From positions 62,001 through 126,000 of the forward strand of contig NZ_CP099400.1 in the NCBI RefSeq assembly GCF_024721175.1: 64,000 bases of DNA, read 5' to 3'. Position 1 is the stretch's first letter. The number at the start of each line of letters is the position of its first letter. Both the position numbers and the translations under genes were made by a program. This DNA comes from Rhizobium sp. Pop5. Lineage in GTDB: Bacteria; Pseudomonadota; Alphaproteobacteria; Rhizobiales; Rhizobiaceae. The notes beneath the pieces are model-generated. The model ran no database searches and was not told where the DNA came from. It saw nothing but the letters and a program-made list of their open reading frames with translations. Below, one piece after another: positions 2,667 to 64,000 of this stretch.

Positions 2667-2716
2667 AGCATGATGTCGCCCGAAACCGCTTACGCTTTTC
2701 GGAAGATATCATGCTA
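2665..2716. repeat. rhizobial palindromic intergenic repeat before moxR-like gene
   Basis: Inverted arms AGCATGAT (2667-2674) and ATCATGCT (2708-2715) flank inner CCGAAA and TTTTCGG segments. This matches the AGAGCATGAT...ATCATGCT type of palindrome common between genes in Rhizobium and Agrobacterium. The right arm contains the ATG taken as the start of the downstream ATPase gene. Confidence 0.7.
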
Positions 2717-3688: not shown

Positions 3689-5002
3689 ATGCGGCCATCC
3701 TCATATCTGATCGCGCTCGTTCTGATTTCGGCTGCCGTGACGGTCTTCGTCAGCGTGTGGTGGCGCGACGTGAGCTATGTCCTGCTTCTCATGTGGCTTG
3801 CGCTCGCAGCGCTGACGGCCGTCGATCTGGTCATTTCCCGCCTGTCGGGCCGGATGACGGTCGAATGCGATCTGCCGCCGCACGGTTTCGTCGGCCACAC
3901 CGCCGCCTTCACCATCGGCATGCGGCCGCAGAAGAACGCGCTGCCGGAGAAGATCGACATCCGGCTCGATTGCGCGCCGGATCTCGTTGTCGGCGAAATC
4001 GGATGGCCGAAGCCGCCTGCCGGGGAAAGTGAAGCCAGAGCCTCTCTCGACCTTCACCTGACCCGACGTGGACAATTCGCGGTCAACGAACTGTGGCTGA
4101 AATGGCCGTCGCGATTGAAGCTGCTCGAGATCATCGCGCGTATGCGCGTTGGCAAAGAGATCGCCGTTCAGCCCGATATATCGCCGGTGCTGTCGGGAGC
4201 AATAAGAACCCAGATCCTGCCTCTCGAAGCCGGCCAGAAGGATCTGTGGCTGCGCGGTGAGGGATCGGAGTTCCATCAGCTCAGGGAGTTTGCCAGCGGC
4301 ATGGACCCGCGCAGCATCGATTGGAAGCGCTCCGCCCGGATGCGCAGTCTCGTCGTGCGCGAGATGCGGGCCGAACGAAACCATCAGGTCATCCTGTGCA
4401 TCGATTCCGGACGGCTGATGGCCGAGAAGCTCGCCGGCTTCACCAAGCTCGACCGCGCCATCAATGCGGCGCTCGCCATGTGCTGGGGGGCCGGGCTTGC
4501 CGGCGATCTCGTCGGCTTCTACAGTTTCGACAGCCGCCCGCGCCTGTTTGTGCCGGCCTTACCCGGTAGAGCAGCCTTTCCGCGACTGCAGACGGTCTGC
4601 GCCGGCTTGCGTTATGAAACCCAGGAGACCAACCATACGCTGGGACTGACGCATCTGTCGGGGCGCCTGAAGCGGCGTTCGCTGATCGTGATATTCTCGG
4701 ATTTCGTCGACACGATCACGGCGGAGCTGATGATCGAGAACATACAGGTGCTCGCGCGGCACCACTTCATCGTCTACGTCGCTCTGCGTGATCCGATGCT
4801 GGCGAAATTCGTGGAACCTGAAGAGACGACGCTCGACGCCGTCGCCCGCTCCGTCGCCGCCCGCCAGATCCTCAACGAGCGGCGCGCCGTCATGGAAAAG
4901 CTTGCCCGTCTTGGCGTACTCTGCCTCGACAGCACGCCCGAAGCACTGACCTCGGATCTCATTGCACGCTACATCGAAATCAAATCCCGTGAGATGATAT
5001 GA
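3689..5002 (+). CDS. DUF58 domain protein (VWA-like MoxR partner)
   Basis: The 437-residue protein has two N-terminal membrane segments (about 5-45). The central DUF58 signature is FHQLREFASGMDPRSIDWKR near residues 195-215, followed by a von Willebrand A-like region starting at VILCIDSGRLM. DUF58 proteins are standard partners of MoxR ATPases. The gene starts directly after the MoxR stop and overlaps the next gene by 4 bases (ATGA), so it sits in the middle of a coupled operon. Its role is probably at the cytoplasmic face of the inner membrane; its substrate is unknown. Confidence 0.87.
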   Translation: MRPSSYLIALVLISAAVTVFVSVWWRDVSYVLLLMWLALAALTAVDLVISRLSGRMTVECDLPPHGFVGHTAAFTIGMRPQKNALPEKIDIRLDCAPDLVVGEIGWPKPPAGESEARASLDLHLTRRGQFAVNELWLKWPSRLKLLEIIARMRVGKEIAVQPDISPVLSGAIRTQILPLEAGQKDLWLRGEGSEFHQLREFASGMDPRSIDWKRSARMRSLVVREMRAERNHQVILCIDSGRLMAEKLAGFTKLDRAINAALAMCWGAGLAGDLVGFYSFDSRPRLFVPALPGRAAFPRLQTVCAGLRYETQETNHTLGLTHLSGRLKRRSLIVIFSDFVDTITAELMIENIQVLARHHFIVYVALRDPMLAKFVEPEETTLDAVARSVAARQILNERRAVMEKLARLGVLCLDSTPEALTSDLIARYIEIKSREMI

Positions 5003-6081
5003 TGGATATCGGTATCGACGGCAGGATAGATCAGCGCTCGACGGTCAACGCCGGTGCCGCCCAGAACGATATGCTTCGCTCGGCGCGCTTCCGGGTGGAG
5101 CGCGAGACGCACTGGCGTCAGCTGGACGAGCTGGTGACGCGCGCCGAGCAAGGCGGGGCGGCAGCCCTCGGTTATGACGAGGTCCGCAATCTCGCGAGCG
5201 GCTACCGGCAGGCGATGAATTCGCTAAGCGTAGCGCGTGACATCTCGCTTGATCGCGCCCTGATCGCCTATCTGGAGAGCCTCTGCGCCCGGGCCTATCT
5301 CGTCGTCTACGCTCCGCAGGAAAGCCTCGGTGGGCTCACCTCCCGCCTCTTGAGGCACGGCATTCCGCAGGCGGTGCGCCGTTCGGCCCTGCCTCTGTTC
5401 ATCGGCTTCCTGGCCCTCATCCTGGGGGCTGCGGCCGGATACAGGCTCTATGAAAGCGACCCGAGCTGGTTCTACACCTTCGTGCCCCCTGAAATGGCTG
5501 ATCAGCGCACGCCCGATGCCTCGGCCGATTATCTCAGATCGACGATCTATGGCGATGAAGGGCAGCAAGACAGCGATCGGCTGGCCGCGTTTTCCGCGTT
5601 CCTCTTCTCCCACAACACCAGCATCGTCGTGCTGATCTTCACGCTCGGCGTTTTCGTCTCGGTGCCGAGCTTCATTCTGACCTTCTACAACGGTCTGATC
5701 CTCGGCGCGTTTTTCGCGATGTTCGCCCGCAAGGGGCTGGGTTACGACGTATTCGCCTGGCTCTCGATCCACGGCGTCACCGAACTTGCGGCGATCGCCA
5801 TCGCCTGCGCGGGCGGCGCGAGGCTCGGTCTTGCCGTTCTCCTCCCGGGCACGCGAACGCGGAAGGAAGCTTTGCGCCATCAGGCCCATGATGCCGTCAA
5901 GCTCGCGATCCTCGCAGCCCTCATGCTCGTCGTGGCGGCCTTCATCGAAGGCGTCCTTCGCCAGCTGATACAGGATCCGACCTCGCGCCTGATCATCGGC
6001 TGGGGCGTGGGCCTCTTCTGGATCGCCTGGCTGACGCTTGGCGGCCGGGGAGGCAAAACGCCACGCGAGGCCGTGCGATGA
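4999..6081 (+). CDS. SpoIIM-like (DUF95) integral membrane protein
   Basis: This 360-residue protein has a soluble N-terminal part of about 120 residues, followed by five or so hydrophobic segments (around 130-150, 205-245, 255-285, 295-320 and 328-350). The central run with FTLGVF, FYNGLILGAFFA and HGVTELAAIAIA fits the SpoIIM/DUF95 family. In non-sporulating bacteria such proteins occur with MoxR and RDD genes and have no known function. ATGA overlaps with both neighbours support co-translation with the DUF58 and RDD genes. Confidence 0.85.
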   Translation: MMDIGIDGRIDQRSTVNAGAAQNDMLRSARFRVERETHWRQLDELVTRAEQGGAAALGYDEVRNLASGYRQAMNSLSVARDISLDRALIAYLESLCARAYLVVYAPQESLGGLTSRLLRHGIPQAVRRSALPLFIGFLALILGAAAGYRLYESDPSWFYTFVPPEMADQRTPDASADYLRSTIYGDEGQQDSDRLAAFSAFLFSHNTSIVVLIFTLGVFVSVPSFILTFYNGLILGAFFAMFARKGLGYDVFAWLSIHGVTELAAIAIACAGGARLGLAVLLPGTRTRKEALRHQAHDAVKLAILAALMLVVAAFIEGVLRQLIQDPTSRLIIGWGVGLFWIAWLTLGGRGGKTPREAVR

Positions 6082-6977
6082 ACCAGTCTCTCAGGGATGG
6101 CAAGCGCGCGGGCGAGTTCATCCCGCCGGAAGGCGTCCCGATCACTTTCGCCATTGCCTCGCTCGGAACGCGTTTCGGCGCGCAATTCCTCGACATCCTC
6201 TTCACCACGATCGCCACCATCATCATTGCCGTCGTGATCGTCTTCACCGGCGTGCTGCCGGAGAGCGCCCAGGGAATGCTAATGGTGCTGCTCGGTTTTC
6301 TGGTGCAGACCCCCTATTACATTCTCTCGGAGCTGATCTGGAACGGACGCACGCTCGGCAAGAGAATAACCGGCATCCGCGTCATCAACGTGGATGGACG
6401 CCGGCTGACGCCGCACCAGGTCACCGCCCGCAACCTGATGAAGGAGGTCGAGATCTTCGCGCCGATGAGCCTTCTGGCTTCGGTCGGCTACCAATCGGCA
6501 TGGGAAAACGGTTTGACGAGCCTCTGGCTCCTGGTGGTCGTGGTTGTTCCCTTCACCAACCGACGCCGCCAAAGGCTCGGCGACGTCATCGCCGGCACCC
6601 TTGTGGTCGACAATCCGCGCTCCGTGCTGCTCTCCGACCTCGCCGTGTCTGCGCCAGCCGCCGCATCCGCGCAGCCGGCCTTCGAGTTTCTGCCGGAGCA
6701 TCTCGATGTCTACGGCAAATATGAGCTGCAGACGCTGGAAGACGTGCTGCGCGACTCCACCAAAACCGCCAACCACACCGAAATCCAGCAGATCGTCCGA
6801 ACCATCACCCGCAGGATCCGCTACGAGGATGCCGTAAAACCCGGCCAGGAACTCACCTTCCTCAACGAATTCTACCGCGCCCAGCGCGAGCATCTGGAGA
6901 GTTTGAAGCTATTCGGAACGCTGCGCGAGAACAAGTATCACCAGTATGCGCGGACGGAGGCGAAGAGACTCATTTGA
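6078..6977 (+). CDS. RDD family membrane protein
   Basis: The 299-residue protein has an N-terminal RDD domain: a membrane segment around 30-58 with the Arg-Phe-Gly...Asp-Ile pattern of the first helix, a second near 65-85, then GRTLGKRITGIRV near 94-106, and a third near 145-165 followed by RRRQRLGDVIAGT. A soluble tail of about 115 residues, rich in charged residues, follows. RDD proteins are membrane proteins sometimes linked to transport. As the last gene of the MoxR operon (4-base overlap with the SpoIIM gene), it is a probable membrane partner of that system. Confidence 0.85.
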   Translation: MNQSLRDGKRAGEFIPPEGVPITFAIASLGTRFGAQFLDILFTTIATIIIAVVIVFTGVLPESAQGMLMVLLGFLVQTPYYILSELIWNGRTLGKRITGIRVINVDGRRLTPHQVTARNLMKEVEIFAPMSLLASVGYQSAWENGLTSLWLLVVVVVPFTNRRRQRLGDVIAGTLVVDNPRSVLLSDLAVSAPAAASAQPAFEFLPEHLDVYGKYELQTLEDVLRDSTKTANHTEIQQIVRTITRRIRYEDAVKPGQELTFLNEFYRAQREHLESLKLFGTLRENKYHQYARTEAKRLI

Positions 6978-7040
6978 GGTGGAGTGAGCGGGCCTTACCG
7001 GCTGTCTTGCGCTCGGAAATTATATTGGAGGGACAATGTA

Positions 7041-16178: not shown

Positions 16179-17225
16179 TCAGGTGCTTCCAAGCCTCTTG
16201 ATATTTCCGATAAGCTCCCCGCCAAGACGCAGCGCGGCGGCGGTCGCCATCGTCATCTGCGGCAGAAGCAGCCATTCGAGCGTCCAGGCAGCACCCGAGC
16301 GTTCCTGCTCGTGGACGAGCGACTGGTGGATGCCCGACAGCGCCGTGGCGTTGAAGCGGGCAAGCGAGATGAGGACTTCGGCGGAAACGGGGTTCTGTTT
16401 GTGCGCCATCGCCGAGGAAGCGCCGCCGCCTGCAATTTCGATCTCGCCGCCGGCCTGGGTCAGCAGCGCAATATCCTGCCCCATCTTCCCAAGGCTGCCT
16501 GAAATCGAAGAGAACAGGCCGGCAATATCGGCGATCGGCAGACGCCCGCTCTGCCATTGCGGCGCGTCGGTGAGGCCGAGCTCCTGGGCGAGCGAGGCAC
16601 GGATGGCGGCTGCCTGCGCCCCGAGCTTGTCGAGGGTGCCTGCGGCGCCTCCGAACTGGACGGGGAAACTCTGCTCGGTCAGCCGGTCGCGATAGACCAT
16701 CAGCGGCGTGCGCCACGCATCGAGACGGTCGGCGACGGTGATCGGGATCGCCGCCTGCATTCGGGTGTGACCCATCAGGCGGCTGCTGCCAAACTTACGG
16801 CCGAGCGCATCGAGCCCTGCGATAATAGTGGAAAGCCGGCCGGCAAAGAGGAAGGTGACGGCCTTCAGGCGGATCATCAGGCTGGTGTCGATGACATCCT
16901 GGCTGGTGGCGCCGAGATGCAGGCTTTTGGCTGCTTCCTCGCCGACAGCCGTGCGCAACTGCTTGACGAGGTCGGGAACGACGACGCCGTCTCTCGCGGT
17001 TGCCGAGCGAAGGCTGATGAGATCGGGAGAAAAACTGGCGCAGGTCTCGGCGATACTCCTTGCAGCTTCGCCCGCAATGACGCCGTGTGCGGCTTCGGCC
17101 TTCGCGAGTGCGGCCTCGAAGAAGAGCATGGCGCGGATATCGGCCTCGGCGGAAAAATAGGGCGCGATTTCATCATCGCCGAGCAGGCCGGAGAGGAAGG
17201 GGTGGTCGAAGGGCGATGCGGTCAT
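16179..17225 (-). CDS. pcaB: 3-carboxy-cis,cis-muconate cycloisomerase
   Basis: This 348-residue member of the fumarase/aspartase superfamily shows LHLGATSQDVIDTS near residues 101-114 and the signature GGGASSAMAHKQNPVSAE near 266-283. It catalyses lactonisation of 3-carboxy-cis,cis-muconate, the step after ring cleavage by PcaHG. It lies downstream of pcaG in the pca operon but is separated from it by 229 bases that hold repeat sequences. The context of pcaD, C, H and G makes the assignment firm. The protein is shorter than many PcaB homologues because it lacks a long C-terminal extension. Confidence 0.9.
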   Translation of the reverse strand: MTASPFDHPFLSGLLGDDEIAPYFSAEADIRAMLFFEAALAKAEAAHGVIAGEAARSIAETCASFSPDLISLRSATARDGVVVPDLVKQLRTAVGEEAAKSLHLGATSQDVIDTSLMIRLKAVTFLFAGRLSTIIAGLDALGRKFGSSRLMGHTRMQAAIPITVADRLDAWRTPLMVYRDRLTEQSFPVQFGGAAGTLDKLGAQAAAIRASLAQELGLTDAPQWQSGRLPIADIAGLFSSISGSLGKMGQDIALLTQAGGEIEIAGGGASSAMAHKQNPVSAEVLISLARFNATALSGIHQSLVHEQERSGAAWTLEWLLLPQMTMATAAALRLGGELIGNIKRLGST

Positions 17226-17239
17226 GGTCTGCTCGTTTG

Positions 17240-17345
17240 TGGTGGTGGCCCCTCATCCGGCTGCCGCCACCAACCGGGACCGAGCCATTGGTCTCGACCC
17301 GTCCTTCGGACCCCCGAGGGGAGAAGGAACTTAGGGCAGCGCCGA
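17240..17345. repeat. intergenic repeat sequence between pcaG and pcaB (first part)
   Basis: The segment contains the CCCCTCATCCGGCTGCCG motif and a downstream GAGGGGAGAAGG segment that recur in intergenic repeats of many proteobacteria, including rhizobia. It sits inside the pca operon and contains no open frame of note. Assignment is by recognition of the motif, not by alignment. Confidence 0.5.
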
Positions 17346-17375
17346 CGCTTATGAGCGGTCGATCTCGTATGGCAC

Positions 17376-17420
17376 TGTTCCCCTCTCCCCCGGGGAGAGG
17401 GTAGGGTGAGGGGGCTGCTT
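17376..17420. repeat. palindromic GGGGAGAGGG repeat inside pca operon
   Basis: Perfect 10-base arms, CCCTCTCCCC (17381-17390) and GGGGAGAGGG (17392-17401), are separated by one base and followed by TAGGGTGAGGGG. This is the widespread proteobacterial intergenic palindrome. Transcribed as RNA it could form a structure between pcaG and pcaB that affects pcaB expression. Confidence 0.65.
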
Positions 17421-17454
17421 GCGCCGAGTCCTCCGAACTTAGCCCGCGCGCCCC

Positions 17455-18066
17455 TCAGATATCCAGAAACACCGTTTCCTTTGGACCTTGCAGATAGATG
17501 TCGAAATGACAAGTCGCACCGTCACGGGTGGCGACCATCGTTGCGATACGCTCACGGTGTTCGATGCGCAGAAGCAGCGGATCGGCGGCGTTGGCCTCTG
17601 CCTCTTCCGGGAAATACATGCGTGTCTGCAGGCCGATATTAATGCCGCGGGCGACGATCCAGACGGTGATGTGTGGGGCTTGTCTGCGGCCGTCCTTGAA
17701 GGGAACATAGCCGGGCTTGATGGTCTCGAAACTGTAGACGCCGTCTTCGGCCCGGGTCGGGCAGCGACCCCAGCCGGTGAAATTCGGATCGGCTGCGCCG
17801 CGCATCTCCGACGGGCTGTTGTAGAGGCCGGCGCTGTCGGCCTGCCAGATCTCGACGACGGCATCGCGCACCAATGCGCCGGCGCCATCGAAGATGCGGC
17901 CGGTGACGGCGATGCGTTCGCCGAGCGTCTTCTCATTGATCATCACCGTGCCGAGATCGGCGTCGTAGACGCCCGATATATCGCAGAAATTCGGCGTCAG
18001 GCCGATATGGACGTAAGGGCCGGCCGTCTGCGACGGGGTTTCCTTGAGGTAGCCGAGCTGCTGCAT
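17455..18066 (-). CDS. pcaG: protocatechuate 3,4-dioxygenase alpha subunit
   Basis: The 203-residue protein is the alpha chain of the intradiol dioxygenase that opens protocatechuate to 3-carboxy-cis,cis-muconate. It has the QTAGPYVHIGL N-terminal motif, VEIWQADSAGLYNSP near residues 71-85, and the RRQAPHITVWIVARG segment where alpha subunits lack the full iron ligand set. The length is normal. It starts 2 bases after pcaH, so the two subunits are made from one message. In this operon the beta subunit comes first. Confidence 0.94.
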   Translation of the reverse strand: MQQLGYLKETPSQTAGPYVHIGLTPNFCDISGVYDADLGTVMINEKTLGERIAVTGRIFDGAGALVRDAVVEIWQADSAGLYNSPSEMRGAADPNFTGWGRCPTRAEDGVYSFETIKPGYVPFKDGRRQAPHITVWIVARGINIGLQTRMYFPEEAEANAADPLLLRIEHRERIATMVATRDGATCHFDIYLQGPKETVFLDI

Positions 18067-53212: not shown

Positions 53213-54349
53213 ATGCTTGCTTTTGACTCTTCCGCCACGCCGCCGACAGCTGAATCGGCGATCAAGAAGCCTTCGCATGGCAGCGAGAGCTATCTGGCGC
53301 TGGTCTGGCGCCGGTTGCGGCGCTCCTGGACCGGCATGGCCGGGCTGGTGCTGGTCGGGCTCCTGATCCTCATGGCGATCTTTGCCGATTTCTTCGCGCC
53401 GATGGACCCGAAAGCGACCGATGTCGGCTTCGCGCCGCCGCAGATTATGAGCTTCCACGACAAGGACGGGAACTTTGTCTTCCAGCCGCGCGTCTATGCG
53501 CTGTCGGATTCCAAGGAACTCGATCCGGTCACCTTCCAGCCGATCGTCGGCATGGATTACGACAATCCGCGGCTGCTCGGCTTCTTCGTCAAGGGTGCGG
53601 ATTACCGGTTGTTCGGCCTCTTTCCCGCGAACCGGCACTTCTTCGGTTCGACCGACGGCCAGCCGGCGCATTTCCTCGGCACCGACAAGTTCGGCCGCGA
53701 CGTGCTGTCGCGCGCCATTATCGGTTCGCGCATCTCGCTGGTGATCGCGCTCACCGTGGTCTTCATCGTCACCATTATCGGCACGACGGTCGGCATGGTC
53801 TCAGGCTATTTCGGCGGGACCTTCGATGTCTGGGTGCAGCGCTTCGTCGAGCTGGTGCTCGCCTTCCCGCAGTTGCCGCTCTATCTGGCTCTGACCTCGC
53901 TGATCCCGGTGACGGCGCCGACCAATGTCTTCCTCGCCTTCGTCATCGTCGTGATGTCGGCGCTCGGCTGGGCGCAGATGTCGCGCGAGGTGCGCGGCAA
54001 GACCCTGGCGCTCGCCCGCATCGATTATGTCAGGGCGGCCATGGCGGTCGGGGCCACCGACAGGCGCATCATCATGCAGCATATCTTCCCGAATGTGATG
54101 AGCCATGTCATCGTTGCGGTGACGCTCGCCATACCAAGCGTCGTGCTGCTTGAATCCTTCCTCGGTTTCCTGGGCTTCGCCGTCAAGCCGCCGCTGATCT
54201 CCTGGGGGCTGATGCTGCAGGATACGGCGACCTATTCGGTCATCGGTTCCTATCCCTGGATTCTCTCTCCTGTCGCCTTCGTGCTCGTCACCGTCTTCGC
54301 CTTCAACGCGCTTGGCGACGGACTGCGCGATGCGGTCGATCCTTATTGA
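53213..54349 (+). CDS. agpC: ABC transporter permease AgpC
   Basis: The 378-residue DppC/OppC-type permease has an N-terminal helix near residues 43-65, a periplasmic insertion of about 100 residues, and the typical LGTDKFGRDVLSRAIIGSRISL motif near 156-177. The EAA loop is around DYVRAAMAVGATDRRIIMQHIFPN. The insertion is longer than in DppC and is shared with AgpC-type proteins. GGAGGA precedes the ATG, 1 base after the agpB stop. Confidence 0.9.
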   Translation: MLAFDSSATPPTAESAIKKPSHGSESYLALVWRRLRRSWTGMAGLVLVGLLILMAIFADFFAPMDPKATDVGFAPPQIMSFHDKDGNFVFQPRVYALSDSKELDPVTFQPIVGMDYDNPRLLGFFVKGADYRLFGLFPANRHFFGSTDGQPAHFLGTDKFGRDVLSRAIIGSRISLVIALTVVFIVTIIGTTVGMVSGYFGGTFDVWVQRFVELVLAFPQLPLYLALTSLIPVTAPTNVFLAFVIVVMSALGWAQMSREVRGKTLALARIDYVRAAMAVGATDRRIIMQHIFPNVMSHVIVAVTLAIPSVVLLESFLGFLGFAVKPPLISWGLMLQDTATYSVIGSYPWILSPVAFVLVTVFAFNALGDGLRDAVDPY

Positions 54350-54359
54350 GGTGATTGAT

Positions 54360-56027
54360 ATGGCTCTTGCACTGGTCAATTCCTTCGCCCCGCCCGTCCG
54401 CCATGATCACGACGGCCGTTCGGACACGCCCATCATCGATGCGCGCAACGTGGCAGTGAATTTCAAGGTCGAGGACGGCATGGTCGAGGCCGTCAAGGAT
54501 GTCTCCTTCCAGCTTTATCGCGGCGAGACGATCGCGATCGTCGGCGAGTCCGGCTCCGGCAAATCGGTGACGGCGCGAACGGTGATGGGGCTCTTGTCGA
54601 AGCGCGCCGTCGTCTCCGGCAAATCGACCGTTTCCTATGACGGCAGCAATATCCTCAAATTTTCCGAGCGGGCGCGCCGCAAGCTGCGCGGCGACCGTAT
54701 CTCGATGATCTTCCAGGAGCCGATGAGTTCGCTGAACCCGATCTATACGATCGGCAGCCAGATCGTCGAGGCGATCCGCGTGCATCGCAGGATCAGCAGG
54801 AGGGATGCGCAAAAGCGTGCACTCGAACTGCTCGAACATGTCCAGATCCCCGATCCGGCGGCGCGGCTGAAGCAATATCCGCATCAGCTTTCCGGCGGTC
54901 AGCGCCAGCGCGTGATGATTGCCATGGCGCTCGCCAACGATCCCGACGTGCTGATCGCCGACGAGCCGACGACGGCGCTCGACGTCACGGTGCAGGCGCA
55001 GATCCTCAATCTGATCCGCAACCTGCAGAAAGAGCTGGGGATGGCGGTCATCCTCATCACCCACGATCTGACGGTCGTGCGGCAGTTCTCCGACTACGTC
55101 TATGTCATGCAGCATGGCGAAGTGCGCGAGCACAACGTCACCGAAGCTCTGTTTGCCAATCCGCAGCACGCCTATACGAGGCATCTGCTCGCTTCCGAAC
55201 CGCGCGGCCAGGCCAATCCGCTGCCGGAGGGTTCGGATGTCATTCTCGATGCCAAGGGTGTGCGCGTCTCCTTCATGCTGCGCCACGGTACCATCCTGAA
55301 ACCCGAGATGCGCGAACTCGTCGCGGTTGACAGCCTCGACCTGTCGCTGCGCCGTCACGAGACGCTCGGCCTCGTCGGTGAATCCGGTTCCGGCAAGACG
55401 ACGTTCGGCCAGGCAATCCTGCGGCTGAACAACGCCCAGAACGGCGAGATCTATTTCGACCGTCAGCCGATCCACGGCCTTTCAAGAGCCGAGATGCGGC
55501 CTTTGCGCGCCCGCATGCAGGTGGTGTTCCAGGATCCGTTCTCATCGCTCAATCCGCGCATGACGATCGGCCAGATCATCGACGAAGGGCTCGTCGTCAA
55601 CCGGCTGGGCGCGACCCGCGGCGAACGGCAGGACCGGGTGCGCGAGGCGCTCATTGCCGCCGGCATGCCCGGCAATATCCTTTCACGTTTCCCGCACGAA
55701 TTTTCCGGCGGCCAGCGCCAGCGCATCGCGATCGCCCGCGCCATCGCGCTGGAACCGGAATTCATCCTGCTCGACGAGCCGACATCGGCGCTCGACCTCT
55801 CCGTCCAGGCGCAGATCATCGAACTCCTGCGCAAGCTGCAGGACGAGCGCGGCCTGAGCTATCTCTTCATTTCCCACGACCTCAAGGTCGTCAGGGCGCT
55901 CTGCCATCGGGTCATCGTCATGCAGCATGGCAAGATCGTCGAAGAGGGGCCCGTCAACGAAGTTCTCACCCATCCCAAGACCGCCTACACCGAACGGCTC
56001 GTCAAAGCCGCTTTCGAGGTAGCATGA
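54360..56027 (+). CDS. agpD: double ABC ATPase AgpD
   Basis: The 555-residue protein is a fusion of two Opp/Dpp-type ATPases. The first half has Walker A GESGSGKS near residues 62-69 and signature LSGGQRQR. The second has GESGSGKT near 341-348 and signature FSGGQRQR. Each half has a DEPT(T/S)ALD Walker B. It drives the AgpB/AgpC channel. GAGGTGAT lies 4 bases before the ATG; an upstream in-frame ATG overlapping agpC is rejected. Confidence 0.9.
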
Positions 56028-56049
56028 TTACCGAATGCCGGAGGCTATA

Positions 56050-57420
56050 ATGGCAGGAAATCCCAAGATCACGTTCATCGGAGCTGGCTCCACCGTCTTC
56101 ATGAAGAACATCATCGGCGACGTGCTTCAGCGTCCGGCGTTGTCGGGTGCGACCATCGCGCTGATGGATCTCAATCCGCAGCGGCTGGAAGAAAGCGCCA
56201 TCGTCGTCAACAAGCTGATCTCGACGCTCGGCGTGAAGGCGAAGGCCGAGACCTATTCCGACCAGCGCAACGCGCTTGCGGGCGCCGATTTCGTCGTCGT
56301 CGCCTTCCAGATCGGCGGCTACGAGCCTTGCACCGTCACCGATTTCGAGGTGCCGAAGAAATACGGTCTGCGCCAGACGATCGCCGATACACTCGGCGTC
56401 GGCGGCATCATGCGCGGGCTTCGCACAGTGCCGCATCTCTGGAAGGTCTGCGAGGACATGCTCGCCGTCTGCCCCGAAGCGATCATGCTGCAATATGTCA
56501 ATCCGATGGCGATCAACACCTGGGCGATCTCGGAGAAATATCCGACCATCCGACAGGTCGGCCTCTGCCATTCGGTGCAGGGCACGGCGATGGAACTGGC
56601 CCATGACCTCGACATTCCTTACGAGGAAATCCGCTATCGCGCGGCCGGCATCAATCACATGGCTTTCTATCTCAAATTCGAGCATCGCCAGCCGGACGGT
56701 TCGTACCGCAACCTCTATCCCGACCTCCTGCGCGGCTATCGCGAGGGCAGGGCGCCGAAGCCCGGCTGGAACCCACGCTGCCCGAACAAGGTGCGCTACG
56801 AGATGCTGACGCGGCTCGGCTATTTCGTCACCGAAAGTTCCGAACATTTCGCCGAATACACGCCCTATTTCATCAAGGAAGGCCGCGAGGACCTGATCGA
56901 GAAATTCGGTATTCCGCTCGATGAATATCCGAAGCGCTGCATCGAGCAGATCGAGCGCTGGAAGGGCCAGGCCGAGGCCTATCGCTCCGCCGACAAGATC
57001 GAGGTCACGCCGTCGAAGGAATACGCCTCCTCGATCATCAACTCGGTCTGGACCGGCGAGCCCTCGGTGATCTACGGCAACGTCCGCAACAATGGCTGCA
57101 TCACTTCGCTGCCGGAAAATTGCGCCGCCGAAGTGCCCTGCCTCGTCGATGCCTCCGGCATCCAGCCGACCTTCATCGGCAACCTGCCGCCGCAGCTGAC
57201 CGCGCTGATGCGCACCAATATCAACGTGCAGGAACTGACGGTGCAGGCGCTGATGACTGAGAATCGCGAGCACATCTACCACGCCGCGATGATGGACCCG
57301 CATACGGCGGCCGAACTCGACCTCGACCAGATCTGGTCGCTGGTCGACGATCTGCTCGCCGCCCACGGCAACTGGCTCCCCGAATGGGCGCGCACATCCA
57401 GTAAAGTCCAGGCTGCCTGA
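56050..57420 (+). CDS. agaL2: second GH4 alpha-galactosidase
   Basis: The 456-residue GH4 enzyme has GAGSTVF near residues 10-16, the metal Cys in GLCHSVQG near 172-179 and the metal His in AAGINHMAFY near 198-207. It is paralogous to AgaL1 but clearly divergent, which suggests a different linkage or chain-length preference. GGAGG 5 bases before the ATG at 56050 decides the start. It closes the agp operon and is followed by an intrinsic terminator. Confidence 0.9.
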   Translation: MAGNPKITFIGAGSTVFMKNIIGDVLQRPALSGATIALMDLNPQRLEESAIVVNKLISTLGVKAKAETYSDQRNALAGADFVVVAFQIGGYEPCTVTDFEVPKKYGLRQTIADTLGVGGIMRGLRTVPHLWKVCEDMLAVCPEAIMLQYVNPMAINTWAISEKYPTIRQVGLCHSVQGTAMELAHDLDIPYEEIRYRAAGINHMAFYLKFEHRQPDGSYRNLYPDLLRGYREGRAPKPGWNPRCPNKVRYEMLTRLGYFVTESSEHFAEYTPYFIKEGREDLIEKFGIPLDEYPKRCIEQIERWKGQAEAYRSADKIEVTPSKEYASSIINSVWTGEPSVIYGNVRNNGCITSLPENCAAEVPCLVDASGIQPTFIGNLPPQLTALMRTNINVQELTVQALMTENREHIYHAAMMDPHTAAELDLDQIWSLVDDLLAAHGNWLPEWARTSSKVQAA

Positions 57421-57450
57421 TCCCTCTCTCCCGGATCGGGCGTCAAAGAG

Positions 57451-57480
57451 CCCCGCGGTCGCAACAACCGCGGGGTTTTT
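57451..57480. terminator. intrinsic terminator after agaL2
   Basis: A 9-base stem, CCCCGCGGT (57451-57459) with ACCGCGGGG (57467-57475), is followed by TTTTT (57476-57480). On the minus strand the hairpin is followed by CTCTTT, so it may also end the opposing YcaO operon. Confidence 0.92.
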
Positions 57481-57543
57481 CGTGCGTGAAACGGCCTCTT
57501 TGTCGCAAGGACGTTTCATGTTCGAGAGTTGCGTTGGCGGTGG

Positions 57544-57834
57544 TTATGCCGGCTTCGGAAAATCAAAGTGCTCACCGCTTTTTGGGATCGGATATTCCAC
57601 TGTCACCGTTCGCTCCGCACCTTTGTCAGGAGTGAGCGTTGCTGTTACCGTAATCAGACCGGGCGGTGTGCTCTTCTTGTCTTCCTTGACAGAGAATTTG
57701 TACTCTTCATTTTTACTACCATCTCGGTCGCTGATTTGCCCGTTCTTGTCCTCACACAGACTTGAAGCATACTCGTCAAAGATCGATAGCTGCTTGTAGT
57801 CGTCCAGTATTTTTGCGTAGACCACGAATGCCAT
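57544..57834 (-). CDS. small protein of unknown function in YcaO-TfuA operon
   Basis: The 96-residue soluble protein begins MAFVVYAKILDDYKQLSIFDEYASSLC. It has a charged middle (KNEEYKFSVKEDKKS), a beta-like GLITVTATLTPDKG and the end EYPIPKSGEHFDFPKPA. It has one Cys and several Ser/Thr, so it could be a modification substrate, but it is longer than most precursor peptides and has no leader-core look. GGAG 6 bases before the ATG decides the start. It is the last gene of the minus-strand operon. The region is AT-richer than its neighbours. Confidence 0.6.
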   Translation of the reverse strand: MAFVVYAKILDDYKQLSIFDEYASSLCEDKNGQISDRDGSKNEEYKFSVKEDKKSTPPGLITVTATLTPDKGAERTVTVEYPIPKSGEHFDFPKPA

Positions 57835-57855
57835 GATGCTCTCCATCAATGCGTA

Positions 57856-58335
57856 TTAGTCGCGGGTAAGACGGCCGTCACGATGTGCCATCCTGAGGGT
57901 GATTGCGTAAGAGCTTGGGGATCGTTTTCCCGGTAGATTGGCGTCGAGTATGAGTGTCTTTGCGTCGCCGAAGTTTGTGCATATCTCAAGCAACATATCG
58001 GATGCGCGGATCCTCCACATCATATAGCCAAGATCATCAAATCCACATCCGACGGCGTCCCGGGGAGGATCGCCCGTAACGAGAAATACCCGGTTTGAAT
58101 CGAACCTGTAGCAATGCCCCTCAAAAGCATAACCATAGGCCAAGACGATTGAATATTCTCCGGACGCACTTCCGACATCGCCATGGAACAATTGCATTCG
58201 AAGATCGGTTTGGGATCCCTCTCCGATATCGAAGCGAGCATAATCGTTTCTGTCGTTGAGCTTGACCCCGTAGAGGATTAGGGCATCAGCTTCGTAGCGC
58301 TCGGTCGCCGGAGCGGGGACGCTGTCATTTATCAT
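57856..58335 (-). CDS. protein of unknown function in YcaO-TfuA operon
   Basis: The 159-residue soluble protein has a GVKLNDRNDYARFDIGEGSQ start region, beta-strand-rich LFHGDVGSASGEYSIVLAYGYAF, and C-terminal LRMAHRDGRLTRD. Three cysteines are present (GHCYRF, VGCGFDD and EICTNF). No family recognised. The ATG at 58335 has GGGAGGT 5 bases upstream. Gaps to its neighbours are about 20 bases. Its role is unknown; it could be a substrate, an immunity factor or an accessory protein. Confidence 0.6.
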   Translation of the reverse strand: MINDSVPAPATERYEADALILYGVKLNDRNDYARFDIGEGSQTDLRMQLFHGDVGSASGEYSIVLAYGYAFEGHCYRFDSNRVFLVTGDPPRDAVGCGFDDLGYMMWRIRASDMLLEICTNFGDAKTLILDANLPGKRSPSSYAITLRMAHRDGRLTRD

Positions 58336-58355
58336 CGATACCTCCCGTCGTCTGG

Positions 58356-59576
58356 TTAAAGAATTCCACGCCACCTCATGCAATCTTCAAGCTGGTCCAT
58401 GTAAGCGACACCCCGCCCACGGCTGGCAGCTTCGAGGAAGGCCAGTGCTGCAGCTTCAAAAGTCAGACTGTCCGGTTCGAGATATCTCCAGGAACGCACA
58501 ACGGCTTCGCCCACGATGTCCCGTGCGTCCTGCAGGGCCGCCTTCGTGGCGAAGTGCTTCAATTCATAAGATGCCTGCGGCGCTCGCAGGCCTTCTTCGA
58601 TAAGCGCAGGCACCATTTGCCGCCGAAGATCGCTGAATTCCCTGGGATTGATGTCCGACGTTCCGCGTTCGAACTGCAGCGATTGGAAGACCTCGATAAG
58701 GCAATCGAATAGGCCCGCCGCAAACGGCTTGGACTGGTCGTGAACATCGTTGCCGACATCACCGATACGAAGCGAGTTGTTAAACGATCGCAATTGCTTC
58801 TCGTCACTGAGTTCGGAAAATTTGTCGAGCTCATTGTGCAAGAGCAGATTTCCGCCGGTGCGGCGAAGGAGCCGATCGAGAGCGGTATCGAATTGCAGCA
58901 ATCCCAGCAGCGATATGAAATCGGCTATCGCTTCGTGGTAGGAAAAGAAATCGGTGTCACGTCCGTCACCCGCGAGGATCCCGAGTTCGCTCAACAGAAT
59001 GAGGTGTCCCATTTCGTGAGCAACGGCATCGAAATTCAGCGCGAAACACGATGCCGAGTTTCCCGGCTCGCTCTCACCCAGCTCCAGAAAGCCAAAGCCG
59101 GATTGCGCATTCTGCCAACCGGGAATGCGGGGAATAATTTCCAACCGTTCCAGCGTTGGTTCGAAAAACCAGGGGATCGAGCGCCCGACATAGCTCTCGC
59201 AGATATCGAGAACCCTGCGCGCGCAGGCATAGCTGTGCGTCGAAAGGAATGCCGGCGAGCCAGGCCCGATGTGATCGAAATGCCCGTCGGGACCGGGCTC
59301 GGCGGGCGGCTGCAAAAGACCGCGATAGGGAGGAATATAGGGCGCGGCATAGGGCGTTTTCGGTTCGACGGGATTTGCCACATAGATGCGGCTGTCGGAT
59401 GGGCCGGCCAGGATGGGTCCTGCCGATGGTCCGATCCAGACCACTTCGGGCTTTTCGTAACCGGGAATGAAGGGCGGCTGAGGGAAGACAAGGAAACGCG
59501 TTCCAAGCGGCAGCTCTGAAGCCGCCCCATGGCCTCCCCCCTCCGCATGTGTGATGGCATCCAATGCTGCCCCCAC
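58356..59576 (-). CDS. predicted gluzincin (thermolysin-like) metallopeptidase
   Basis: The 406-residue protein has a zinc motif HEMGH at residues 187-191 and a third ligand in HEAIAD (Glu215, Asp219), the thermolysin-type gluzincin pattern with H-to-E spacing of 28. No signal peptide is visible, so it probably acts in the cytoplasm unless exported by another route. It begins with GTG, since no in-frame ATG lies nearby, and has a weak ribosome site, so the start is uncertain. It sits 42 bases after tfuA; a leader- or product-cleaving role in the YcaO-TfuA system is inferred from context. Confidence 0.75.
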   Translation of the reverse strand: MGAALDAITHAEGGGHGAASELPLGTRFLVFPQPPFIPGYEKPEVVWIGPSAGPILAGPSDSRIYVANPVEPKTPYAAPYIPPYRGLLQPPAEPGPDGHFDHIGPGSPAFLSTHSYACARRVLDICESYVGRSIPWFFEPTLERLEIIPRIPGWQNAQSGFGFLELGESEPGNSASCFALNFDAVAHEMGHLILLSELGILAGDGRDTDFFSYHEAIADFISLLGLLQFDTALDRLLRRTGGNLLLHNELDKFSELSDEKQLRSFNNSLRIGDVGNDVHDQSKPFAAGLFDCLIEVFQSLQFERGTSDINPREFSDLRRQMVPALIEEGLRAPQASYELKHFATKAALQDARDIVGEAVVRSWRYLEPDSLTFEAAALAFLEAASRGRGVAYMDQLEDCMRWRGIL

Positions 59577-59618
59577 AGCTCGTTGCCCAACGCCGAGCGA
59601 TCTTGCACTATACCAGTT

Positions 59619-60383
59619 CTACTTGTGTTTCGACAATAGTGTTTCGAGCAATCCGCAGTACTCCATATCGTTTGCGAATGATTCCGTAAGTTCAAAGTCG
59701 AAGGAAATGGGGTTGGCCCCGGATTTTAGCTTGTGGTCGGCGAGATATGTCAGAAGATTTACCGCATCCCTTCGTTTCTGGTTTACGGCCTCGGCTTTCA
59801 GCCACGACTTTAGTGCCGCTAGCTTGTCCGCAGGGCCGGGATTGTTTTCAGCCATTGCGAGAAGCCTGGCGAATGATCTTTCGCTGAAGTGCAGCGCGCG
59901 GGCCAGGGACTCCAGCTGATCTCGCAATCGTCTTCCGATGACCCCGGCGCGTTCCGCTTTTCTCAAGCTCAGCCTGATGTCGATGAGAGCGTCGCCCAAT
60001 GCGCGTGATCCCAGTTCGACGGGCGCCATCGGCACCGTGACGTCGGCATCGTCGGCGAGCGGGTGCCGCCGATACCATCGGTAGATCAGTCCGTGTCCGA
60101 TCATTCCCTGGGGCGCGAGTTCCGCTGCTCTCAGCGCGCCGATGCTGGCCGCACCGTAGACGCGGACCCCACGGGCCATCGCCCAGAGAATTTCCTGGTG
60201 ACGAACGGCCGGGCGCTGCGCGAAGACGCCGTCGATTAGCACGACCGCCGACGGCCCGTAATCCGCCACGGCGCGCACGACATCGCCGCAGCCGACGGGA
60301 GGCCGATAGATCGCGTCGAGATATCCGAGCGCTTCCGTCTCGGAGAGAGTAGGGCCGAGAAAGACCACGACATCGTCACGCAA
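59619..60383 (-). CDS. tfuA: TfuA-like protein
   Basis: The 254-residue TfuA-family protein shows VVVFLGPTLSETEA near residues 4-17, AVVLIDGVFAQRPAVRHQEILWAMARG near 44-70 and GAASIGALRAAELA near 75-88. TfuA proteins partner YcaO enzymes; in some systems the pair installs thioamides in peptides or proteins. Start is TTG at 60383: GGAGG lies 6 bases upstream and the start overlaps the ycaO stop by 8 bases, whereas the longer ATG frame lacks a ribosome site. Confidence 0.88.
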   Translation of the reverse strand: MRDDVVVFLGPTLSETEALGYLDAIYRPPVGCGDVVRAVADYGPSAVVLIDGVFAQRPAVRHQEILWAMARGVRVYGAASIGALRAAELAPQGMIGHGLIYRWYRRHPLADDADVTVPMAPVELGSRALGDALIDIRLSLRKAERAGVIGRRLRDQLESLARALHFSERSFARLLAMAENNPGPADKLAALKSWLKAEAVNQKRRDAVNLLTYLADHKLKSGANPISFDFELTESFANDMEYCGLLETLLSKHK

Positions 60384-61524
60384 GATCCGCCTCCGGATTT
60401 GTTTCCAGCGGCGGAGCAACCACCCGGACGACGTGAAGGGGAATGCGATCATCCGAATGAAGAACCACTCTGATGGCCGCCTTCGCCCCGGCCAACTTCA
60501 AGGCCTCGACGATCGCCAACATGGAGCGGTCCTTGGCGACAGGATCTTCATCGGCGACATAGGAGATGCCGCCCTGTGCGAGTTGCTGGCGCCATGCGGA
60601 AAGCTCCGAGGTATCGGCATAGGAGTAGACTTCGCTGCTGATATCGTCGCGTGCAGCCGAAATCACCCCCAGCCGCGATTGGCACGCTTCGAGCAATGCG
60701 CTGGTCAAAGCGCGGTCATGGCTGAAGTTGCAGCCGAAACCTTCGGCCGGCAAGGGGGCAAAGGGAGCGCGGCCGGCACCTTCCATCACGTGGCACCAGT
60801 AGATCGGCAGCGCATGCGGCGCCGGGATTTTCCAGATGCCGGTGACGAAACCCGCCTTGGCCAGCCGCTGCATGATGTCGCCGGCGCTGCCGGAGCGGAC
60901 CGAGCGGCCGTCGATCTGGAAGCGATCGAAGAAATGCGGGGTCTTCATCGCCGTGCATCGCGCCTGCCGCTCGAGAATCTCCAGGCCGGCATGCAAGGTC
61001 GCGCTTTGCAGGCTGGTGCCGGCCGCAAGGCCCGTTGTGTCTCTGGGCAGCCAATGCGGGTGAGGCGAGAGGACGGTGTATGCGGAATCGACAAGGGCAA
61101 GCGGGACAGGCGTTCTCCGGCCGGAAAAGAGATCCAGTCCGCCGATCCAGGAAAGCCTCTCCTCATCTCGTCCGACGCCAAGGTGCGACCAGAATTCCTT
61201 CTCGTTGATGTCGCCGAAGGTCGCCGTGAAGACGCGGTCCGGGGCAATCCGCTCCGAGGCCCATCCCTCCAGGGATTCCATCAGGCCCGATATCGCCGCA
61301 AGCGGCACAGTCAAACCTTTGCCCTGGCTGACGGCAACGGAAAGCGCCTGCGGCCTGATGACCTGGACGACGGGGATGCCGATCCGGTCGAGCTCTGTGA
61401 CAGAGCCCAGCCTGGTGATGCCGTATTCTTGTTTACGCGCCAGGATGCGCTGCACCGTCTGCCAGGGATCAGGAGGCGAGGAGAGGGGGATATCGAAGAT
61501 ATGGTCGAGCATCCCGTCCTCCAT
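60376..61524 (-). CDS. YcaO-domain ATP-dependent cyclodehydratase/thioamidase-like protein
   Basis: The 382-residue YcaO protein has the ATP/Mg-binding glutamates in GLMESLEGWA (Glu83, Glu86) and TGLAAGTSLQSATLHAGLEILER (Glu182, Glu185, Arg186). The C-terminus ends ETNPEADLA and lacks the PxPxP motif of azoline-forming YcaO enzymes, which favours a TfuA-dependent reaction such as thioamidation. AGGAGG lies 5 bases before the ATG. No E1-like or ocin-ThiF partner is present. The substrate is unknown. Confidence 0.9.
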   Translation of the reverse strand: MEDGMLDHIFDIPLSSPPDPWQTVQRILARKQEYGITRLGSVTELDRIGIPVVQVIRPQALSVAVSQGKGLTVPLAAISGLMESLEGWASERIAPDRVFTATFGDINEKEFWSHLGVGRDEERLSWIGGLDLFSGRRTPVPLALVDSAYTVLSPHPHWLPRDTTGLAAGTSLQSATLHAGLEILERQARCTAMKTPHFFDRFQIDGRSVRSGSAGDIMQRLAKAGFVTGIWKIPAPHALPIYWCHVMEGAGRAPFAPLPAEGFGCNFSHDRALTSALLEACQSRLGVISAARDDISSEVYSYADTSELSAWRQQLAQGGISYVADEDPVAKDRSMLAIVEALKLAGAKAAIRVVLHSDDRIPLHVVRVVAPPLETNPEADLA

Positions 61525-61539
61525 CGCTTCCTCCTGGTC

Positions 61540-64000
61540 TTACGGCCTTGGCAACCCGTCCAGACCTTGCTTCGCTCTTTCGGCCAGCCAGGCGGCTTTC
61601 TGACCTTCGGCAATCTGGACCGCTCTCACCAGGTCCCTTCTGATCGAGGAGGGAGGCTCGTTCAGATCCCGCCTCAGCCTTGCGCTGAGACGATAGAGTT
61701 CGGCCAGCCAGAACCGCTGGCCGCTGTTGCGGCCGACATTGATGGCATTGTGAACGGTAGCCAGCGCTTCAACAGGCTTGCCGAGCCGCTGCAGCACTTG
61801 TGCATGCATGTCGCTGTGCATGGAAAAATTATCGTCGGTGCCCAACTGCTGCTGGAGCAGCAGGCCGCGTTGGAAGCGTTCCCGGCCGCGCTCGTCGGCG
61901 GAAGTCATCAGTTCCGCCCAGCCGCAATACATATTGGCGCGGGCCTGGCTGGCGGCGAGGCCGTGCCGCTCGGCAAGCGCCAGCATTTGTTCGCCGAGCG
62001 CATGGACATCGTCATATCGGCTTTGGCAGCGGCGAAGGACGATCGCGTAATAAAGCGAATGAACCATGCTGCCCGGATGATCGGTCGAGGCCGCCCAGTC
62101 CAGGCACCGCCCGATCGCATTTTCGCTGGCGTCGGCATCGTCGAGCAATAGATAGGAGAGGGCGCTCTCGCCCAGGCCGCAGACCTTGGCGTCATGTCCG
62201 CCGAAGAAGGCGCGATTTCTGACCGCTCTTTCGGAATCGTAAAGGTCAAGGCCTCTGGCGACGCAATCGAGGCAGAATTCGTGCTCGCCGGCATGGAAGC
62301 TCGTCGCCCATCCGCAATGATAGGATTGAAGCCGCGTCTCCTGATCCTCGACGGCCTTCATGTCTCCCACGAGAATGCGCGCGCGGGACTGCTGCGTCAG
62401 AATATTGGGCGCGGTGAACCACCATCCCCAATAGACCGGGAAATGTTTGACCCGAACGGCCGAGGCCTGCTTCTGCAGAAGCTGCATGGCGCGTGAATAG
62501 ACCCGCCGCGCGCTTTCCGAGCCTTCACCTTCAAGTGCGGTCGCAACGACACCCTGAAGTTCGAGCAGACCCAATGCCAGCTCGGCGCGATCGGGATGGC
62601 GCCGGGAAACGCCGCCGACTTCCCGTGCACAGAGCTCGAGCGATACGTTTGCCTCGTGCATCGCCGAGCGGAGGACGCTTGCTTCCGCCGCCGCCAGGGC
62701 AAACCGCGCCGCGGCGTCGTGCAGGCCTGCTTCGGCACACTGCCAGGCGGCGATGGCAGCCGGCAGGCTGGGCTTTGCTTCACCGATCAACAGATCGGCG
62801 ATCCGCTTGTGGATGCGGCGTCTGTCGGTCTTGAGAAGGCTGCTATAGGCGGCTTCCTGGGTCAGCACGTGCCGGAACTGAAAGGAGCCAGGCCCAATGG
62901 AGGAAGGCTCGATGATGCCTTGAGAGAGAAGCCGCTCGACGGCGACGTCGACGGCCTGCCGGTCGACCCCTTCTAGGAGGTAGGCGAGCAGCGACATGCT
63001 GAATTCGCGGCCGATAACGCTTGCAAATTGCGCCACCCGTCGCGCCGAACCGGTCGCAGCGAGTCTCGCGGACAGCAGATCGTTGAGCGAGGTGACGCCG
63101 CCTTCCCTGAGCAGCTCCTGCCATTCGGACGAGGCCTTGCTCAGTGGTTGCCTTGCCCGGAAGAAGTTGGCCAGTTCTTCCGCATAGAGCGGCATGCCAT
63201 CGCATTGATCCAGGATGAAGTCGTCAAGGCCCGGCGGAGGAGGCTCCCCCCAGATCGAGGCGACGAGGTCGCGAACTGCGGCAGAGGCCAGGCCGGTTAA
63301 TTCTATCTCGGTTGCCAGCGCCAGGGACCGTCTTATCCTCGACGTCTGAACCACGAGGATCGGCAACTGGCCTGCGAGCGATCCGAGCCGGTCGATCAGC
63401 TCCAGCGTCATGCCGTCAGCCCAGTGGACATCCTCGAAGACGAGGAGGGTCGGAACCGCTGTCACTTTGCAGGTCAGGATGTCAGCCGCGGCTTCGATCA
63501 CCTCCCGCCTGAATGCGCGGTCGGAGAGATTCGACACGCGAATATTGCGCGAGGTCGCTGGCGAGCGGTCCGACGTGAATGAGAGAATGGTCTGGGCGAC
63601 GCTCGCGTTGACCTTTCGGCCGGATGCTCGAAGCGCCTGCATGAAAGCCGCGCTATCGCCATCCTTCAGGATCGAAGCTTCGCCGACAAGCCTATCGAGA
63701 AAAGACAAAAACGGGTGCAGAGGCTGGCTCTCCATGCGCCTGCCGCACTGAAAGATCAGGGTCTCGTGCGGCGTTTGCAAGAGGTTGCGGGCGAGTTCGC
63801 CGATCAGCCTGGATTTGCCGATGCCTGCCTCTCCGACCACGGTGATCGAACTGCCCTTGCCATCGCGCGCTGAATTCCAGGCGCTCAAAAGAGCGGCGAG
63901 CTCATTTTCCCTGCCTCTGATCGGCCGGTCCCACACATGGGGTAGTGACGGTTCAGAGGTTAGTCGACCGCGGTCGCGGGGGCGCCAGAGCGCCACGGGG
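61540..64000 (-). CDS. AAA ATPase/TPR regulator, 5' end beyond window
   Basis: At least 818 residues are visible, reading in from the window edge. Walker A GEAGIGKS lies near residues 55-62 of the visible part and Walker B LLVFEDVHWAD near 190, followed by an all-helical, TPR-like half of about 450 residues. The PIRGRENEL start resembles the junction where an adenylate cyclase domain or a DNA-binding domain joins such ATPases, so the complete protein is probably longer. It is the first visible gene of the YcaO operon (15-base gap) and may regulate it. Confidence 0.82.
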   Translation of the reverse strand, partial: PVALWRPRDRGRLTSEPSLPHVWDRPIRGRENELAALLSAWNSARDGKGSSITVVGEAGIGKSRLIGELARNLLQTPHETLIFQCGRRMESQPLHPFLSFLDRLVGEASILKDGDSAAFMQALRASGRKVNASVAQTILSFTSDRSPATSRNIRVSNLSDRAFRREVIEAAADILTCKVTAVPTLLVFEDVHWADGMTLELIDRLGSLAGQLPILVVQTSRIRRSLALATEIELTGLASAAVRDLVASIWGEPPPPGLDDFILDQCDGMPLYAEELANFFRARQPLSKASSEWQELLREGGVTSLNDLLSARLAATGSARRVAQFASVIGREFSMSLLAYLLEGVDRQAVDVAVERLLSQGIIEPSSIGPGSFQFRHVLTQEAAYSSLLKTDRRRIHKRIADLLIGEAKPSLPAAIAAWQCAEAGLHDAAARFALAAAEASVLRSAMHEANVSLELCAREVGGVSRRHPDRAELALGLLELQGVVATALEGEGSESARRVYSRAMQLLQKQASAVRVKHFPVYWGWWFTAPNILTQQSRARILVGDMKAVEDQETRLQSYHCGWATSFHAGEHEFCLDCVARGLDLYDSERAVRNRAFFGGHDAKVCGLGESALSYLLLDDADASENAIGRCLDWAASTDHPGSMVHSLYYAIVLRRCQSRYDDVHALGEQMLALAERHGLAASQARANMYCGWAELMTSADERGRERFQRGLLLQQQLGTDDNFSMHSDMHAQVLQRLGKPVEALATVHNAINVGRNSGQRFWLAELYRLSARLRRDLNEPPSSIRRDLVRAVQIAEGQKAAWLAERAKQGLDGLPRP

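Follow-up and report, generated by a model that had tools for sequence, protein, structure and literature searches.

What does a YcaO–TfuA pair modify when no short precursor peptide is encoded beside it? The question is raised by an operon at the end of a stretch of 64,000 nucleotides from Rhizobium sp. Pop5 (contig NZ_CP099400.1, positions 62,001–126,000; G000:C3:62001-126000 among the genomes compared, from an assembly of 6.74 Mb in five contigs), referred to here as the window. Six genes on the minus strand encode, in order, a class III cyclase/AAA/tetratricopeptide repeat (TPR) protein, YcaO, TfuA, a metallopeptidase (pep) and two small proteins, p2 and p1. An earlier note, made from the sequence alone, had seen no obvious precursor peptide here. 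This holds for short precursors but not otherwise: p2 is a candidate, and comparison with its relatives indicates that 'no precursor' is probably wrong. We consider it likely that p2 serves as a precursor whose leader is a folded domain, that YcaO and TfuA thioamidate its tail, that the peptidase trims it, and that the cyclase/AAA/TPR protein governs the process.

Conservation of the gene order

A scan of a genome collection with an alignment of p2 yielded 36 loci, mostly from Rhizobium or Rhizobiales and also from Ensifer, Mesorhizobium, Paracoccus, Microvirga, Alsobacter and Amaricoccus. Queries with the proteins of the window itself found the cyclase/AAA/TPR protein, YcaO, TfuA, the peptidase and p2 in all 36. 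The order ycaO-tfuA-pep-p2 on one strand was also found in all 36, a count that used profiles partly built from those same loci.

A search from the peptidase side, unbiased towards p2, found a match in 25 of 297 genomes of the order, including the window's own and several weak ones. There are 18 strong places besides the window's own, and 17 of these were fetched. The full order is present in 15; in the remaining two the contig stops at pep or 0.4 kb behind it. At the level of the class, 8 of 385 genomes (again including the window's own) match the peptidase at 1e-20; six loci were fetched and five are complete. Setting aside a peptidase type without YcaO, discussed below, ycaO-tfuA is next to pep in 58 of the 59 counted loci. 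Two loci are counted twice, as L035/L058 and L036/L066 are the same contigs and stand in both the p2-selected and the order-level sets; L075/L135 are the same plasmid. The counts leave out L018, G714 and nine places where the peptidase match is weak (E between 2e-8 and 8e-4); the three weak places that were fetched (L052–L054) have no ycaO.

A peptidase and small genes not conserved with YcaO–TfuA had been named in the earlier note as the outcome that would speak against it. For the peptidase and p2 the opposite was found. Of the two small genes only p2 is tied to the cassette; a p1-like frame lies just behind p2 in 21 of the 31 loci looked at by eye. The p1 profile matches the downstream proteins of other loci (hhalign E 1.9e-7), and p1 looks, from these comparisons, like a fast-diverging accessory. 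It was rejected as the main substrate, being neither universal nor slow to diverge.

R. johnstonii 3841 has the operon on plasmid pRL11, as RL_RS31045 to RL_RS31020, where YcaO, TfuA and AAA are labelled and the rest are 'hypothetical'. A plasmid collection contained 123 records with a peptidase match, one Nostoc plasmid among them.

The p2 family and its tails

In distant loci the p2 profile found divergent p2 genes behind pep. They share the N-terminal domain, and their tails consist of tandem units – VSGAR, VSGAK, GASVR, SRVSG, YSGGKA, SMMTGR, GANLGS, RAVMAS, GMNV, GRSDLV or SGGALSR. The N-terminal domains of window-type and distant p2 match each other as profiles (E 1.7e-6, probability 90), which supports one family. 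In most units a hydrophobic residue is closely followed by a small one, usually Gly, and unit lengths of 4, 6 and 7 occur besides 5. A pentapeptide solenoid as the general form of the tail was rejected, as unit length varies and the model is disordered, yet some relatives carry the corresponding Pfam label (see below).

Codon differences between the units of an array were more often synonymous than non-synonymous in all 15 arrays tested. Synonymous to non-synonymous differences between codon pairs numbered 159:0 in L048, 121:0 in L051, 84:0 in L043 and 63:0 in L131, with weaker ratios in L041 (66:25) and L132 (120:40); the units were chosen by pattern, so some non-synonymous change at the ends is hidden. 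The synonymous excess suggests that the repeated peptide itself is under selection.

When a database was searched with nine repeat-tailed p2 proteins, 1112 of the 8000 sequences scored were relatives at E 0.001, some share of which may be repeat-only matches. Among the 120 relatives listed, 114 tails have a period of 5, 3 have a period of 10, and 3 have visible repeats scoring at the cut-off of 0.35; this list favours repeats because the profile itself held repeats. Ruegeria or Leisingera account for 16 of the 120.

In the window's clade the tail carries a single motif. A protein search for p2 relatives found 214 among 235 candidates, and the window's p2 shares 97–98% identity with its counterparts in R. 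pisi and R. vallis. Tail residues L134, P135, G136, R138, P140 and Y143 are each conserved at a level of at least 95% in 43 loci. The AlphaFold2 model of the window's p2 (23 sequences) has a mean predicted local distance difference test score (pLDDT) of 74, and the tail falls below 50 from just behind LPG. A model of a VSGAR-type p2 (46 sequences) has a mean pLDDT of 65 and two extra helices; residues 141–187 are below 50, the disorder beginning a few residues before the repeats. The two models have a closely similar order of strands, and each has a closing short helix.

In the peptidase tree a fully supported split, requiring a single change, separates the single-motif loci (44 rows) from the repeat side (18 rows). 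L042, L050 and L130 are 'repeat' by default, their tails being cut off, absent or Arg-rich, so that the comparison is of 15 seen repeats with 44 single motifs.

YcaO, TfuA and the peptidase

The window's YcaO matches PF02624 at 7e-44 (150.9 bits) and its TfuA matches PF07812 at 3e-39 (134.1 bits), while p1, p2 and the peptidase of the window match no Pfam or NCBIfam family even at E 1. YcaO is related to the solved archaeal YcaO MJ1094 (6pe3, 3e-14). Its residues E83, E86, E182, E185 and R186 are conserved at a level of at least 95% in 63 aligned rows, two of which are other YcaOs of the source genome, and the glutamates presumably bind ATP. None of the 63 compared YcaO frames, the window's included, ends in the PxPxP of azol(in)e-forming enzymes, as the earlier note had said of the latter. 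TfuA is related to structure 6xp8 (3e-27), and its motifs are conserved. TfuA goes with thioamidation (PMC6511847, PMC8120280) and is a hydrolase that works with ThiS-like carriers (PMC13063428).

In the peptidase, H187, E188 and H191 (HExxH) and the downstream E215 and D219 (ExxxD) are invariant in all 14 aligned sequences. We take this combination of motifs to mark the gluzincin class. Two relatives of the peptidase have weak, sub-threshold Pfam matches.

The cyclase/AAA/TPR protein

The first gene of the operon extends 530 nt past the window end and encodes 996 residues. Its earlier label, 'AAA/TPR', was right for the AAA part (AAA_16, 4e-20 in the window) but incomplete, since the window edge cuts the gene: the full protein matches a class III cyclase at its N-terminus (PF00211, 3.9e-18) besides AAA_16 (5e-20). 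Pfam reports no kinase domain in the full 996 residues.

Of the 18 loci on the repeat side, 13 have a cyclase domain, either fused or in a cyclase/TPR gene of its own nearby; none was found at L043, L047, L048, L050 and L133. A Crp-type regulator that binds cyclic nucleotide monophosphates adjoins the repeat-type clusters L048 (4970–5710) and L051 (4970–5752), which fits the frequent link to a cyclase. Among the rows listed, all 12 of the single-motif kind have V, I or A in place of the Asn of the usual 'NLAAR' (NxxxR) cyclase motif, presumably a catalytic residue, while both repeat loci of the fused type retain this Asn; the alignment covers 30 of 46 loci, and the distant Rhizobium type (L080 and like) is not among the rows seen. 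With this Asn replaced, a cyclic-nucleotide output is doubtful.

Proposed function and alternative explanations

We infer the following course of events from the conserved gene order, the p2 domain shared with distant loci, the repeat tails, a tail that in the window's clade is the most constrained part of p2 yet predicted to be disordered, and the conserved catalytic motifs of YcaO and the peptidase. The folded beta-domain of p2 would act as a leader or docking domain and the disordered C-terminal tail as the core. YcaO would use ATP to activate a backbone amide in the tail, and TfuA would supply the sulfur to give a thioamide – a choice of chemistry suggested by the association of TfuA with thioamidation (PMC6511847, PMC5589413, PMC8120280). 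In the window's clade we tentatively place the site at or next to the invariant Gly of LPGxR, from the presence of TfuA and the feature common to most units; repeat-type relatives would receive one modification per unit. The zinc peptidase would cut p2 or trim its tail, the cyclase/AAA/TPR protein would sense a signal governing production, and p1 would be an accessory. The earlier note had offered two kinds of substrate. Its suggestion of a small protein that is modified and then processed by the peptidase is supported for p2, which is tied to the cassette and has repeat-tailed relatives; a folded protein as substrate is not supported over the p2 tail. It had also allowed for a classical short precursor just beyond the window: none was noticed there, where short frames were not searched systematically.

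Several observations weigh against p2 as a thioamidated precursor. The protein is large for a precursor, and the models of it are of moderate confidence. Its tail is barely ahead of residues 59–85 in mean identity (0.69 and 0.66), and in 18 loci the ratio of non-synonymous to synonymous differences per site is lowest in the tail (0.21, compared with 0.31 in the middle and 0.52 in the N-terminal part); synonymous sites are near saturation, and the ranking alone is meant. The tail in this clade is more constrained than the domain, unlike most cores of ribosomally synthesized and post-translationally modified peptides (RiPPs). The tail of p2 in L130 is Arg-rich and without repeats, while L133 (7623–11081) has a p2 with GMNV units, pep and TfuA and no YcaO beside them. 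No exporter gene was recognised by eye at the operon.

A whole branch also lacks YcaO beside the peptidase. In R. ruizarguesonis and R. acidisoli (L136 7013–10931, L137 7010–10932) a cyclase/TPR gene and pep are found with no YcaO or TfuA, together with a p2 whose tail has two or three units like SGGALSR. The peptidase is present in 70 of 148 genomes of the genus: 25 match this YcaO-less type at a level of at least 85%, 44 have other types, and one has a fragment only. G1136 has one type and a remnant of the other; every other genome has one match. YcaO is beside the peptidase in none of the 25. All 25 have YcaO elsewhere (24 have two and one has one), the nearest on the same contig being about 149 kb from the peptidase; p2 and TfuA were looked at in the two named plasmids of this type. 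For the other types, YcaO is about 1 kb from the peptidase in 17 of 18 genomes checked, and in the 18th pep opens a contig on which YcaO is found only much further along, an arrangement that a circular plasmid could produce. The YcaO-less sets imply that either a general YcaO–TfuA pair acts in trans or the branch does without one; p2 itself may not need the pair, or may use another in trans.

The count of none in 25 also favours a different explanation, in which p2, the peptidase and the cyclase protein form a regulatory or proteolytic module of their own, YcaO–TfuA modifies p1, the peptidase or a housekeeping protein, and the repeat tail is structural and pentapeptide-like. Of the 120 relatives listed, 8 bear the precomputed pentapeptide-repeat label PF00805, and in some relatives the tail may therefore be structural – a further point against p2 as precursor. 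Two of seven relatives submitted scored 18.0 and 17.0 bits, under the gathering cut-off of 20.2. The window's p2 has no match to this family. Units of 4, 6 and 7 residues misfit a pentapeptide solenoid, the VSGAR tail is predicted to be disordered, and outside the YcaO-less type the adjacency of ycaO-tfuA and pep described above is nearly complete. We regard a separate module as unlikely.

If p2 is the substrate, the change to its backbone could differ. Enzymes of the YcaO family form thioamides, azolines and amidines, and Ser occurs in many units (VSGAR, RAVMAS), as do Ser and Thr in the tail of the window's clade, so that an azoline (by loss of water at Ser, Thr or Cys) or an amidine might be made. 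This is improbable, as TfuA accompanies thioamidation (PMC6511847, PMC8120280) and GANVR-type arrays (P0124, P0140, P0141; gene context not seen) have no Ser, Thr or Cys. The earlier note had also reported no E1/ThiF partner, dehydrogenase or exporter. None, an E1-like partner included, was recognised by eye among the listed frames (54300–64000 and about 9.5 kb beyond the cyclase gene), not all of which were searched against profiles.

A signalling or defence-like module, in which the peptidase, with p2 as regulator, is set off once the cyclase/AAA/TPR protein has sensed an invader, is very improbable: the cyclase domain matches PADLOC PycC (best 3e-10) and the AAA part weakly matches Avs2 and others, but the other five operon proteins have no PADLOC family at E 0.1, the replaced cyclase Asn makes a cyclic-nucleotide output doubtful, and YcaO–TfuA would be left unexplained.

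With p2 retained as the precursor, a wider generalization is conceivable, though doubtful. The loci may represent a widespread alphaproteobacterial class in which a folded beta-domain bears a disordered tail made thioamide-bearing by YcaO–TfuA, at one site in rhizobia and, in relatives from marine and other sources, at one bond in each unit of 4 to 7 residues, under the control of a cyclase/AAA/TPR sensor and a zinc peptidase; the YcaO-less branch would borrow a second pair in the same cell. A substrate family that comes in a repeat form and a single-motif form would make the question of the rhizobial YcaO–TfuA target concretely testable, and would extend thioamide chemistry to the tails of folded proteins and to regular repeats.

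Operon layout and neighbouring genes

The six minus-strand frames claimed in the earlier note are all in the list of open reading frames where it had put them (Table 1). Its terminator corresponds to a terminator-like hairpin at 57474–57450, between the operon and the convergent gene, that the automatic scan missed. The TfuA start is likely the TTG at 60383, judged by the sequence preceding it, rather than the ATG at 60452.

Table 1. Positions of the operon genes and associated features in the window
Feature	Position	Strand	Remarks
p1, 96 aa	57544–57834	-	ATG, preceded by GGAGAG; fast-diverging, putative accessory protein
p2, 159 aa, candidate precursor	57856–58335	-	ATG, preceded by GGGAGG; beta-domain ~18–131 and C-terminal tail
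Gluzincin-type metallopeptidase (pep), 406 aa	58356–59576	-	GTG start
TfuA, 254 aa	59619–60383	-	Likely TTG start behind GGAGG; overlaps ycaO stop
YcaO, 382 aa	60376–61524	-	Pfam YcaO; conserved E83, E86, E182, E185, R186
Class III cyclase/AAA_16/TPR protein	61540–64000, on past window end	-	C-terminal 819 of 996 residues inside window
p2 tail, candidate core: residues 127–159 and stop	57856–57957	-	Predicted disordered from ~137
LPGxRxPxxY motif, p2 residues 134–143	57907–57936	-	Tandem repeats at about this place in distant relatives
9-bp G+C hairpin, terminator-like	57450–57474	not assigned	On the minus strand, A5 before and CTCTTT after

Genes for an oligopeptide-type ATP-binding cassette (ABC) ATPase and an alpha-glucosidase, named by eye, converge on the operon from the plus strand (54312–57420), and the equivalent place on pRL11 (strain 3841) is annotated with an ABC ATPase and an alpha-glucosidase/galactosidase. 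The oligopeptide-type ABC ATPases at 54312–56027 of the window and at 16386–17926 of locus L004 are of the import type by appearance. On Ensifer canadensis pT173d (L138 11897–14705), a TetR regulator separates p2 from HlyD-type and MFS efflux genes that lie about 1.1 kb behind it. They are the only exporters seen near a relative, among four annotated regions.

Other YcaO genes are frequent in these genomes. The source genome has two further YcaO–TfuA pairs with a TPR protein upstream (L005 8080–12322 and L006 8635–12628, minus strand), and most checked Rhizobium genomes, those without the peptidase too, have one or two YcaOs beyond the dedicated one. About 26 kb past the window (L181, G000:C3:146000-158000, at 2005–7023) a YcaO of 390 residues is accompanied by a nitroreductase-like protein of 266 residues and an ABC exporter-like protein, all named by eye; the set resembles a cluster of the azol(in)e or trifolitoxin type. 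In each of G1027:C4:158527-164529 and G1035:C4:396248-401900, three YcaO genes are clustered.

Comparison with known systems

An antiSMASH/RiPPER survey of 2021 found more than 500 YcaO–TfuA clusters in Rhizobium, at a time when all known thioamidated RiPPs came from Actinobacteria (PMC8120280). Its TfuA clade 2, mostly from Proteobacteria and Actinobacteria, was unvalidated, and the present operon belongs to the same broad group as its proteobacterial clusters. The words 'cyclase' and 'repeat' are not in the main text of the survey, and its main-text passages do not mention p2, although its 7,799 candidate precursors, in supplementary lists, may include p2 unremarked. In passages of open-licence main texts (including PMC8120280, PMC6511847, PMC4603692 and PMC13063428) the cassette is not described.

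The cyclase-AAA-TPR order is shared with the TOMM kinase/cyclase fusion (TIGR03903). Here the part of the protein in the window matches positions 480–1265 of 1267 with 246.6 bits, below the cut-off of 705.75, and the kinase domain is absent by Pfam. The equivalogs for McrA thioamidation (NF033432, TIGR03266) share the YcaO and TfuA pair, but the operon misses both cut-offs (TfuA 190.6 against 235.2; YcaO 111.7 against 365) and differs in linking to the pair a peptidase, a cyclase/AAA/TPR protein and a protein resembling a precursor. The E. coli YcaO that acts on ribosomal protein uL16 (PMC13063428) is also a bacterial YcaO thioamidating a protein and not a short peptide; it has no TfuA and needs the tertiary structure of its target. 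The thiovarsolins (PMC6511847) likewise combine YcaO–TfuA with a precursor that has a repeated core, in a family that ranges from no repeat to five. They are actinobacterial and have other tailoring genes, whereas in the p2 proteins a folded domain precedes the tail.

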